Of a stretch of 64,000 nucleotides of DNA, positions 44,744 through 47,593 are shown piece by piece. The notes beneath the pieces are model-generated. The model searched no databases. It was not told the DNA's origin and worked only from the letters and a program-made list of their open reading frames with translations. Position 1 is the first letter of the stretch. The number at the start of each line of letters is the position of its first letter. The position numbers were made by a program, and so were the translations under genes. This DNA is from an uncultured Pseudothermotoga sp. (GTDB lineage Bacteria; Thermotogota; Thermotogae; Thermotogales; DSM-5069): assembly GCA_937995655.1 (NCBI GenBank), contig CALKJI010000005.1, positions 124,001-188,000 on the forward strand. Reading direction: 5' to 3'.

Positions 44744-44821
44744 GGGGACGTGGTGCAGCCTGGTTAGCATGCCGGTCTGTCACACCGGTGGCCGCGGGTT
44801 CAAGTCCCGTCGTCCCCGCCA
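44744..44821 (+). tRNA. tRNA-Asp (anticodon GTC)
   Basis: Acceptor stem GGGGACG pairs with CGTCCCC, and the discriminator G plus CCA is encoded at the 3' end. Anticodon stem CCGGT/ACCGG encloses the loop CTGTCAC, giving anticodon GTC at 44779-44781. The T arm GCGGGTTCAAGTCCCGT contains the standard GGTTCAA. 78 bases with CCA. Isolated single tRNA gene with its own terminator. Confidence 0.97.
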
Positions 44822-44822
44822 G

Positions 44823-44845
44823 AGGGAGGCATTAGCCTCCCTTTT
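44823..44845 (+). terminator. Rho-independent terminator after tRNA-Asp
   Basis: Stem AGGGAGGC (44823-44830), loop ATTA, GCCTCCCT (44835-44842), then a T run. It begins one base after the tRNA CCA end. Confidence 0.88.
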
Positions 44846-44872
44846 GTGTTATAATACTCACGAGGTGAACTG

Positions 44873-45415
44873 GTGAGGCTTCTGCTTGGAAGGCAGATAG
44901 TTTTGAAGGAGTTCTATCACACGGATTTGGCTATTTCATGGATTGAGGAACCTGTTGCTGGAGCATATACTTATCTAATCGGTAATGACAAGGGTTACAT
45001 GTACGTTGTTGCAAATTCAGACGAAATTCATTATGGTAGTGATTTTGATCATTTAAACACTCCTTTTGGAAAAGTATCAATTATTTGTTCTAGCAAGCCG
45101 ATCGGTTGGGAATTGATACACAGTTCCAAGAAATCTGATGCGCTGTTAGTAGTTGTCTTTCAACGATCTGCAAATATCTCTGAGTTGCTTTTGACGAAAG
45201 CAATTTGTTGGGGAGCTAGCAAGGAATTCAATATACCAGTAGCTCTACTGGTGAATCATCTGGACCATTTGCAATATGAGCTTTGTGTACCAAGGCAGGG
45301 TAAGGAACAATCAGGGATGGTTTACGATTCCAGTGCAAGTTGCATAATCGATATGGATGTTTCAAAGACAGAAACTGGTGTCTTTTTCACCGTGAGAAGC
45401 TTTGCTGAAGGTTAA
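44873..45415 (+). CDS. Partial nitrilase-fold-like protein, unknown function
   Basis: 180 aa; GTG at 44873 behind GAGGTGAA. The middle resembles the second half of a carbon-nitrogen hydrolase domain: GKVSIICSSKP, where a nitrilase has GVxICYDxxF, then WELIHSSKKSDALLVVVF and SELLLTKAICWGASKEFNIPVALLVN, matching the family's helix and Asn-ending strand. The Glu and Lys of the usual Glu-Lys-Cys triad would lie in the first half, which is not recognisable here. The one Cys in IICSS could be the nucleophile remnant. Followed directly by a second nitrilase-like gene. The call rests on pattern resemblance. Confidence 0.55.
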   Translation: MRLLLGRQIVLKEFYHTDLAISWIEEPVAGAYTYLIGNDKGYMYVVANSDEIHYGSDFDHLNTPFGKVSIICSSKPIGWELIHSSKKSDALLVVVFQRSANISELLLTKAICWGASKEFNIPVALLVNHLDHLQYELCVPRQGKEQSGMVYDSSASCIIDMDVSKTETGVFFTVRSFAEG

Positions 45416-45416
45416 T

Positions 45417-46277
45417 ATGATGGGTCTGACTCGGTTTCTCCTTTCTGCTTCACTTTCAAAGTCTCAAGTTCAACGTTGGCTCAAAGCTTTAGTACAACCG
45501 TTCCCTCAAAGAAGGATTAAAGGTGTAGTAAAGGCTGCGGTCATTCAGATGGACTACACTCCAGTCTCTGGAATTGGCGGATTTGTGACGTTAATCAATC
45601 ACTTTCTCGTGAAAATGAAGGATTTTTCACCCCAGATAATAGTTTTTCCGCACTTGATGGATTCTGTCTTTTCTGGTACTTTTCCTTTCTTTTTATTCCC
45701 ATCTGGCAAACTGTATACCAAAACGCTCAGGCAATCTTCCGCAATAACAAGCGGAGTCTGTGAAAAAATTATGGCTGAACTTTCAAAGGTTTGGAGTTGT
45801 TCTGTGATCTTTGGTACAACGCAAGGGTTGATGGCATATCATGAGGGTGTGAAACAAAACCTGATTTTTGAAACTCAAGGATACAAAATGGCAGTTGTAC
45901 CAAAAAGATTGCTTACAAGCAGTATGAAGTTAAAACAGTTGACAGATGATGGTGTCAGAATACTTTCGAGCCCTGGATTTGGGCTAGCTGACTATAAAGA
46001 ATGGGACGATCGATTTTACATGTGGGCACATTCACAGATGGTAGGATTTTATGGGCTATGGTCAGCAATGTCTGGAAGATTCTTTGCGAATAATTTAAAG
46101 GCTAAGGCTTGTGTTGTTGCTCCGATTCCCATTACCAACTCCCTTGACGGTTACATAGTTAAGAACAGTTCTACTAGTGGTGATACCGTCCTTTTAGCTG
46201 AACTAGATATGTACAAGCTTGAACTATTCATTCAATCAAGAAAGATCCCCGTTATTTACAATCCGGAAGATAATTGA
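45417..46277 (+). CDS. Degenerate nitrilase-fold-like protein
   Basis: 286 aa from the ATG at 45417; a TTG at 45402 overlapping the upstream gene is also possible. Nitrilase-type opening VKAAVIQMDYTPV and IIVFPHL, where the catalytic Glu of FPE is His. CSVIFGTTQ, NLIFETQGYKMAVVPKRLL (retaining a Lys at the expected place), and no Cys at the nucleophile position (region GFYGLWSAMSG). Thus the active-site triad appears lost. It ends with beta strands like a nitrilase C-terminus (SGDTVLLAELDM). The 3' end overlaps the convergent peptidase gene by 22 bases. Possibly a structural or binding relative. Confidence 0.55.
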   Translation: MMGLTRFLLSASLSKSQVQRWLKALVQPFPQRRIKGVVKAAVIQMDYTPVSGIGGFVTLINHFLVKMKDFSPQIIVFPHLMDSVFSGTFPFFLFPSGKLYTKTLRQSSAITSGVCEKIMAELSKVWSCSVIFGTTQGLMAYHEGVKQNLIFETQGYKMAVVPKRLLTSSMKLKQLTDDGVRILSSPGFGLADYKEWDDRFYMWAHSQMVGFYGLWSAMSGRFFANNLKAKACVVAPIPITNSLDGYIVKNSSTSGDTVLLAELDMYKLELFIQSRKIPVIYNPEDN

Positions 46278-47593
46278 TTCAAAAGCAATTCATCCCAACG
46301 TGTGTTTTTGGCAAATTCTGTTAGAATGTATTCTCGAATGTATTCTCGAATGTATTCTCGAGTGTCAATCTTGTTTCTGTCTTGGCAAACAAAGATACTT
46401 ATGGCGAGGCTTTGTGGTTTAGGGTTTGAAAGATATTTATACACAACTACATTATTGAACTTTTCTAAAGTTTCAGTTGCACCAAGAGTCTGAAGAACTT
46501 CACCTAAATCGTATAGGTAGTAGGGTTGGCTATAAGTTGTCCAAGTAGCTTCTTGTAACACAGGACCCGTCAACAAAAATTCATTGAAAGAATCTATAGC
46601 ATCGTCGATAGCATCTGTTTTGTAAACGGCGAGAGATGTAAGGCTAAGGCTTGTTTCGGGCTTGTTTTTATAGAATTCCTCGTAATAATCGACTAGTCCT
46701 TTACAAAATTCAAGGGGATCTTTCCTGCTCATGGAGCTTAAAAAACTATAATCCCAACCGGTGCCCTGGATTTCATATGCCGAAGCCACTATATAATCTG
46801 CGGTATTTCTTAAAGCATAGATCACCTCTACAGAACCCATCAAACAAGCATCCATCCCCAGTACATCCCATTTCTCTGTCACATTCTGTGCAATCTCAGA
46901 AATTTTCAGAAAATCCTTACTCTGATCATCATAAGCAATTCCTTTGACTCTATAATCTTGCGGAGTAACATCAATCCATGAAAAACCATGATTCCAAATG
47001 ATGAGAGCTTTGTAATCTGAATCAACCTTACTGAATCTTTCTGTATATTTTCTAAAAAGCGTTCCATCCCCGCTGTTTAGTTCATTTGTTTCTTCGATTT
47101 TCACCATCCTTGAATCGTTCGTCAGTGCATATATCCCGTCCTTTGATGGATCTGAACTGTCCCACACAACGATTGTAGAAACATCTTCGGCAGCCTTGAC
47201 CATTTCCAGAAAATCGCCATGCACAAAACGATCAAGGTTGTTATCAGATGCGAGCCATAGGAAGACTAACCACGAGGGCTTTTTGATATTGATCTGTAAT
47301 GTCTTAGTTATTGACCCGCACTCGATCTTCAGTTCTTTTGTACCAACTTCTTCAGAATAAATTGGGATCGTAGCATATCCATAGTCATCTGTTTTGTATT
47401 CAACGGCATCGACCTTTATTTTGAGATTTGATATCAACATACCGTAGTAATTCTTGAATCCGATCTTCAGATAATAAACTCTGCCAGCATAAACTTCGTC
47501 GCCGTTTTTGACGACTATTTCACTTGGTCTGATGATGTTAACACATCCATAAAGTAACGGCACCAGTACTGTTAGAAGAATTATTCGTCTCAT
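46256..47593 (-). CDS. Clostripain-family (C11) cysteine peptidase, lipoprotein
   Basis: 445 aa. Lipobox LLYGC with Cys17, an Ig-like beta domain (about 20-105), then a C11 peptidase domain beginning WLVFLWLASDNNLD. Catalytic His202 lies in IIWNHGFSW and Cys250 in LGMDACLMGS. Family members cleave after basic residues and are often exported. Near the C-terminus a 12-base tandem repeat encodes three REYI units. It overlaps the upstream PLP gene by four bases; its 3' end overlaps a convergent nitrilase-like gene. Confidence 0.88.
   Translation of the reverse strand: MRRIILLTVLVPLLYGCVNIIRPSEIVVKNGDEVYAGRVYYLKIGFKNYYGMLISNLKIKVDAVEYKTDDYGYATIPIYSEEVGTKELKIECGSITKTLQINIKKPSWLVFLWLASDNNLDRFVHGDFLEMVKAAEDVSTIVVWDSSDPSKDGIYALTNDSRMVKIEETNELNSGDGTLFRKYTERFSKVDSDYKALIIWNHGFSWIDVTPQDYRVKGIAYDDQSKDFLKISEIAQNVTEKWDVLGMDACLMGSVEVIYALRNTADYIVASAYEIQGTGWDYSFLSSMSRKDPLEFCKGLVDYYEEFYKNKPETSLSLTSLAVYKTDAIDDAIDSFNEFLLTGPVLQEATWTTYSQPYYLYDLGEVLQTLGATETLEKFNNVVVYKYLSNPKPQSLAISIFVCQDRNKIDTREYIREYIREYILTEFAKNTRWDELLLNQLSSGL
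46325..46360. repeat. 12-bp tandem repeat, three copies, inside the peptidase gene
   Basis: Unit AATGTATTCTCG at 46325-46336, 46337-46348 and 46349-46360, identical copies. In the minus-strand reading frame each gives Arg-Glu-Tyr-Ile, so copy number changes would keep the frame. Confidence 0.95.

Follow-up and report, generated by a model that had tools for sequence, protein, structure and literature searches.

Two adjacent genes at positions 44,873 to 46,277 raise the question of what a pair of nitrilase-like proteins could do when neither has a complete catalytic triad. They lie in the window analysed here, a stretch of 64,000 nucleotides from the 2.1 Mb genome (G000) of an uncultured Pseudothermotoga sp. 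A sequence-only reading of this DNA had drawn attention to the two genes, which we call ORF1 and ORF2, and its coordinates and reading frames for them were right. The locus contains the following features, in order along the forward strand:

44744..44821, + strand: tRNA-Asp (GTC), directly upstream of the ORF1/ORF2 pair
44821..44844, + strand: terminator-like hairpin between the tRNA gene and ORF1, with 10 pairs followed by a T-rich tail
44862..44868, + strand: Shine-Dalgarno-like GAGGTGA, four bases 5' of the ORF1 GTG, its function predicted from the sequence
44873..45415, + strand: ORF1, 180 aa with a GTG start, a putative shortened pseudo-nitrilase subunit
45420..46277, + strand: ORF2, 285 aa from the ATG at 45420, a full-length nitrilase homologue without the triad

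The TTG start listed for ORF2, at 45402, overlaps ORF1 and is probably wrong. The ATG at 45417 or 45420, one or four bases past the ORF1 stop at 45415, fits instead, because relatives begin at an ATG in that position. The hairpin is a weak prediction, since two hairpins were found where 1.6 would be expected in shuffled sequence. The tRNA-Asp (GTC) gene lies directly 5' of the pair in 9/9 pair-holding genomes of family f1 (the window and loci L002-L009), and none was found upstream of the pair at the three other loci scanned (L078, L083, L092). Downstream lies a convergent clostripain-family gene, and its 3' end carries a short tandem repeat with a 12-base unit (46325-46365), which encodes EYIREYIREYI near the C-terminus.

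Homology of ORF1 and ORF2 to each other and to carbon-nitrogen hydrolases

Neither window protein matched any Pfam or NCBIfam family up to an E value of 1. When ORF2 was compared with PDB sequences by phmmer, the sole matches were to a designed PPR protein (E 0.0035) and to AMPK kinases, and they were taken as chance. Profiles were built from 24 loci. Alignment A2 comprises 22 ORF2 proteins, namely the window protein (L001) and 21 others, L021, which is truncated, and L023, which duplicates L022, being excluded, and A1 comprises 21 ORF1 proteins from the same loci. Two further alignments, A8 and A9, hold the proteins of a full-length pair found in genomes G069 and G102, A8 being the triad-bearing homologues (ANC2) and A9 their partners (ANC1).

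The A2 profile matched solved nitrilases (3ivz at E 3.8e-6; also 6ypa, 7ovg and 1j31), and 3 of the 22 ORF2 relatives matched PF00795 individually, with a best E of 9.2e-6. The search against the CN_hydrolase family proposed in the sequence-only reading was positive for these three relatives and negative for the window proteins themselves. The A1 profile gave only weak matches, the aliphatic amidase at E 0.2 ranking below a designed protein at 0.13. Profile-profile scores were computed with hhalign, each against 30 column shuffles. ORF2 against the triad-bearing homologues (A2-A8) scored 153.8 (best shuffle 21.0), ORF1 against ORF2 (A1-A2) scored 51.9 (best shuffle 19.8), and ANC1 against ANC2 (A9-A8) scored 133.4 (best shuffle 20.5). 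ORF1 was also above shuffles against A9 (43.8, best shuffle 18.3) and A8 (47.4, best shuffle 18.0). These sequence comparisons showed that both proteins share ancestry with carbon-nitrogen hydrolases and with one another; for ORF2 the homology is direct by profile, and for ORF1 it is indirect, through ORF2, ANC1 and ANC2, its direct match being weak. The suggestion that both genes are nitrilase-like was thus confirmed at the level of profiles, not with single sequences.

The ORF2 alignment spans 255 columns, the entire fold with its second half included, so that the earlier description of ORF2 as a first-half protein was refuted. ORF1 can be aligned from about residue 56 onward, which corresponds to the second half of the fold as the sequence-only reading had seen it, and its N-terminus is unmatched. 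This protein consists of a family N-terminal motif (G6, E13, F14) followed by the nitrilase-like second half, in which W113 is invariant in A1. AlphaFold2 models from two-row alignments reached a mean pLDDT of 39.2 for ORF2 and 33.3 for ORF1. The alpha-beta-beta-alpha sandwich of nitrilases, whose absence would have counted against the sequence-only reading, is therefore a prediction from homology for both chains.

Among known families, the carbon-nitrogen hydrolases of PF00795 are linked to the pair by the profile homology of ORF2 and by ANC2 of G069, which matches the model at 62 bits. The window pair differs from them in having neither the triad nor a match to the Pfam model, and two features of its family, an invariant Trp and the Thr-containing insertion P-x3-T-x4-G, were not seen in seven canonical proteins. 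Among nitrilase-type proteins the ORF1 profile matched the aliphatic amidase (PDB 2plq, 4lf0, 4gyl) best, with the similarity lying around the nucleophile strand and a K-A-x-x-W helix; ORF1, however, has no catalytic Cys and about half the length. With a profile E of 0.2 and no triad, ORF1 did not qualify as a member of the aliphatic amidase branch.

Catalytic columns, a conserved tryptophan and a triad-bearing pair

The triad was scored in an alignment of 33 ORF2 proteins (the 22 of A2 plus 11 from families f5, f6 and f10), 2 ANC2, 2 ANC1 and 7 canonical proteins, the last including a 602-aa frame of the window genome itself (L046) and five proteins closely related to one another. The ORF2 proteins of f3 and f9, being too divergent, were excluded. 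The Glu column held Glu in 3/33 ORF2, 2/2 ANC2, 0/2 ANC1 and 7/7 canonical proteins; the other 30 ORF2 proteins had H, N, G, A, R, K, Q or Y there. Lys was found at its column in 1/33 ORF2 (where the alignment is poor), 2/2 ANC2, 0/2 ANC1 and 7/7 canonical proteins, and Cys in 0/33, 2/2, 0/2 and 7/7, respectively. The window ORF2 has H at the Glu column, a gap at the Lys column and K at the Cys column, in agreement with the earlier observation that FPH replaces FPE and that no nucleophile Cys is present.

Thirty ORF1 proteins were scored in the same way (the 21 of A1 and 9 of f5; f3, f6, f9 and f10 left out), and none had Cys at the nucleophile column, which was occupied by G in 16, N in 5, S in 4, V in 3, T in 1 and A in 1. 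The Cys of the window's IICSS, which had been placed at the nucleophile position, proved to lie one residue before that column; Ser occupies the column, and Cys stands at the IICSS position in only 5 of the 21 A1 proteins. The absence of a complete triad from both proteins thus held, no triad residue being conserved in either chain. Because the Glu-Lys-Cys triad was tested and not found, ORF1 and ORF2 are not members of the nitrilase superfamily as enzymes, although on sequence they are its homologues.

In place of the triad, another set of residues is conserved. A Trp was found in 33/33 ORF2, 30/30 ORF1, 2/2 ANC1, 2/2 ANC2 and 0/7 canonical proteins. The Gln four residues past it occurs in 33/33 ORF2 and 21/30 ORF1 proteins, and also in 5/7 canonical proteins, so it is non-specific. 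The Thr of P-x3-T-x4-G is present in 31/33 ORF2, 2/2 ANC2 and 1/2 ANC1 proteins, with a gap in 7/7 canonical ones. In A2 the residues W202, Q206, G219, P235, T239 and G244 are invariant, and residues 195-244 hold 6 of the 7 invariant columns other than Met1; the hypergeometric probability of such clustering is 1e-4, but the region was picked post hoc and the columns were treated as independent. In nitrilases this part of the fold packs dimers, and the conserved Trp helix hints at a similar contact in the pair.

A version of the pair with a triad was found in G069, a closed genome with one contig of 2,302,126 bp. At L092:2824-4643, two overlapping genes in the same order as ORF1-ORF2 encode proteins of 252 and 348 aa. 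FPE, Lys and Cys are all intact in the second protein, ANC2. The first, ANC1, matched PF00795 at 20.6 bits, short of the 23.2 required, and its residues at the triad columns are A, Q and S. A similar overlapping pair, with the triad in the second protein only, lies on a 5.1-kb contig of G102 (L141:116-2034). This contig may be foreign, since G102 has its own f9-type pair and 6% contamination. The pairs at L092 and L141 are candidate complexes of an active enzyme with a pseudo-enzyme in their own right.

In a tree of 39 selected rows, ORF2 and ANC2 formed a group with support 92/88 and ORF1 a single group with 99/98. Together with the ORF1-ORF2 and ANC1-ANC2 profile homology, this bears out the view of a duplicated and diverged carbon-nitrogen hydrolase pair. 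ORF1 and ANC1 share one side of an unsupported branch (53/0), and the alternatives ORF1+ANC2 and ORF2+ANC1 were marginally disfavoured (AU 0.043 and 0.052), so the order of stepwise loss set out below is only a proposal. When plasmids were searched with the G069 proteins, ANC2 matched 29 records, most of those listed bearing the annotation of an ordinary carbon-nitrogen hydrolase, and ANC1 matched a single one weakly. Two of the 29 ANC2 regions were opened, and neither had another nitrilase gene annotated next to the match.

Retention, selection and surroundings of the two genes

Presence was counted in 103 Thermotogota genomes at E up to 0.001 per genome, taking matches to A1, A6 or A10 as ORF1 and to A2 or A7 as ORF2. 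Each gene was detected in 71/103 genomes, and both in 69/103. ORF1 alone was found in two genomes (G018, G093) and ORF2 alone in two (G035, G011), the matches of the latter two sitting at contig ends. The remaining 30 genomes had neither gene by these profiles, and a complex of the two would therefore not be universal. The genes were adjacent, with ORF1 first, in 52 of the 69 genomes. In the 51 linked pairs checked by coordinates they lay on the same strand, ORF1 first, with match edges at most 230 bases apart; G069 is the 52nd. The other 17 genomes comprised all 15 of family f3 as well as G047 and G053, where the genes lie on different contigs.

Since these 17 genomes carry both genes unlinked, co-retention is independent of linkage. 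This is the strongest sign of joint function in the comparison, with related genomes counted as if independent, which they are not. The presence of both genes in 69 genomes, 52 times as neighbours, agrees with the sequence-only proposal that the pair acts as a complex, which we regard as very probable.

Assignment of the divergent families varied in firmness. The ORF1 proteins of f3 (A10) and f9 (A6) matched A1 at 96.5% and 95.5%, and A10-A2 and A6-A2 were indistinct from shuffles in hhalign. For ORF2 of f9, the A2-A7 score was 29.8 (best shuffle 15.5), but the hhalign probability was 14.5%, and A7-A8 was not above shuffles; these proteins belong to the family mainly by their position beside ORF1. 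At the separate f3 loci (L098-L117), ORF2 is shortened, with open frames of 168-270 aa, and the ORF1 open frame is about 163-193 aa. W-x3-Q and P-x3-T-x4-G are still readable in several of the f3 ORF2 proteins.

Seven of 14 comparisons had unsaturated dS (three for ORF1, four for ORF2) and gave dN/dS of 0.049-0.102; the remaining seven were saturated. Both genes are under strong purifying selection, as these sequence comparisons showed.

The ORF2 proteins start with a basic extension. We scored N-termini by the best 18-residue moment plus charge in 38 ORF2 proteins (the 22 of A2 and 16 picked from loci), and the median was 1.90 for these, compared with a background of 0.85 in 57 ORFs of the window; 21 ORF1 proteins had a median of -0.44. 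The window ORF2 itself scored 1.57, near the background 90th percentile (1.55). Because charge rather than moment drives the score, and because the window protein lies so close to that percentile, docking on a membrane is a weak suggestion.

No common pathway emerged from the neighbourhoods, which vary by family (f1, G021, G060, G069 and G102 were compared). In G021 an aminoacyl-tRNA-synthetase-like gene, named by eye from N-terminal sequences, lies on either side of the pair. In G060 (f9) ORF1 is immediately preceded by an M18 aminopeptidase gene (L143:5428-8142), which overlaps it, and the pair of G069 has an MFS transporter as its neighbour. The nitrilase pair on the G102 contig is overlapped at its end by a gene for a CHASE histidine kinase/response regulator (L141:2031-4109).

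In the open-access literature on pseudo-, inactive or heteromeric nitrilases and on Thermotoga nitrilases, and in that on Thermotogae signature proteins and on TM1088-TM1090 of T. maritima, nothing was found on the pair. PMC3824785 contains a sequence comparison with one Kosmotoga olearia entry, which was unmatched to the genes of the pair. The two-gene TrkA assembly TM1088A/TM1088B of Thermotoga maritima (PMC4380455) resembles the proposed complex in being a two-protein assembly encoded by adjacent genes, and differs in that its fold is unrelated to ORF1 and ORF2.

Possible roles of the pair

Several readings compete with that of a non-catalytic complex. The sequence-only reading had allowed for an active site shared between the chains, in which a single carbon-nitrogen hydrolase would draw its Cys half from ORF1 and its Glu/Lys half from ORF2. 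That the match of ORF1 is confined to the second half of the fold, and that the window protein has a Cys near the nucleophile position, would suit such a split. ORF2, however, spans the whole fold and has no Glu in 30/33 proteins and no Lys in 32/33, and the ORF1 Cys lies one residue off a column where Cys occurs in 0/30 and is present in only 5 of 21 A1 rows. With Cys in 0/33 ORF2 proteins as well, we consider a shared site very improbable indeed. A relocated site, built on the invariant Trp, Gln, Thr and Gly or on a Lys at the old Cys column, draws on the strong conservation of W202, Q206, P235, T239 and G244 and on the Lys found at that column in 14/33 ORF2 proteins. Yet the column varies (K, P, E, F, S, D, R), and except for E13 of ORF1 neither alignment has an invariant acid, His, Ser, Cys or Lys, which makes new catalysis improbable.

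Enzymes that have lost catalysis often end up binding ligands, and the pair could have kept a degenerate substrate pocket through which metabolite levels are signalled to another protein. The kinase/regulator gene overlapping the pair on the G102 contig would fit such a sensor, but that contig may belong to another organism, no such kinase was recognised by eye in N-terminal sequences from stretches of G069, G021, G060, G012 and G016, and a conserved pocket residue is not apparent; we hold this role to be unlikely, if conceivable. Decaying remnants beside a tRNA gene could account for the lost triad, the shortened chains and the missing Pfam match. The frames are intact, though, and both genes are kept in 69/103 genomes, and the pseudogene reading was rejected as contradicted by the selection test (dN/dS 0.05-0.10), so there is next to no chance that it is right.

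We therefore return to the non-catalytic complex: judged from sequence comparison, the two proteins rather probably assemble into a non-catalytic, presumably obligate heteromer within the nitrilase superfamily. Its origin may be pictured as follows. An ancestral dedicated nitrilase would have been duplicated, and one copy would first have turned into a non-catalytic partner. In most lineages catalysis would later have disappeared from the second copy too, the two copies remaining associated. The triad-bearing version of the pair suggests that a combination of active enzyme and pseudo-enzyme preceded the loss of catalysis in both subunits. The association may be mediated by a helix carrying the invariant Trp of each chain (W-x3-Q in ORF2), together with the nearby P-x3-T-x4-G, and the basic N-terminal extension of ORF2 might dock the complex on a membrane or other acidic surface. 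The complex would then be a binding or scaffold device, not an enzyme. Nitrilases build spirals, and a bolder version would make the two dead nitrilases an obligate hetero-oligomer or filament, anchored by the ORF2 N-terminus and serving as a phylum-specific structural or positioning scaffold; we rate this as decidedly improbable.

Homology has now been assigned to two Thermotogota proteins that had no Pfam or NCBIfam family. If the heteromer reading is true, the phylum would hold a natural series that begins with an active/inactive pair, passes through full-length proteins without catalysis and ends in subunits that are shortened and, in some genomes, no longer linked. With it one could ask which tasks a pseudo-enzyme retains once catalysis is gone, and the reading predicts specifically that the chains meet around one Trp in each.
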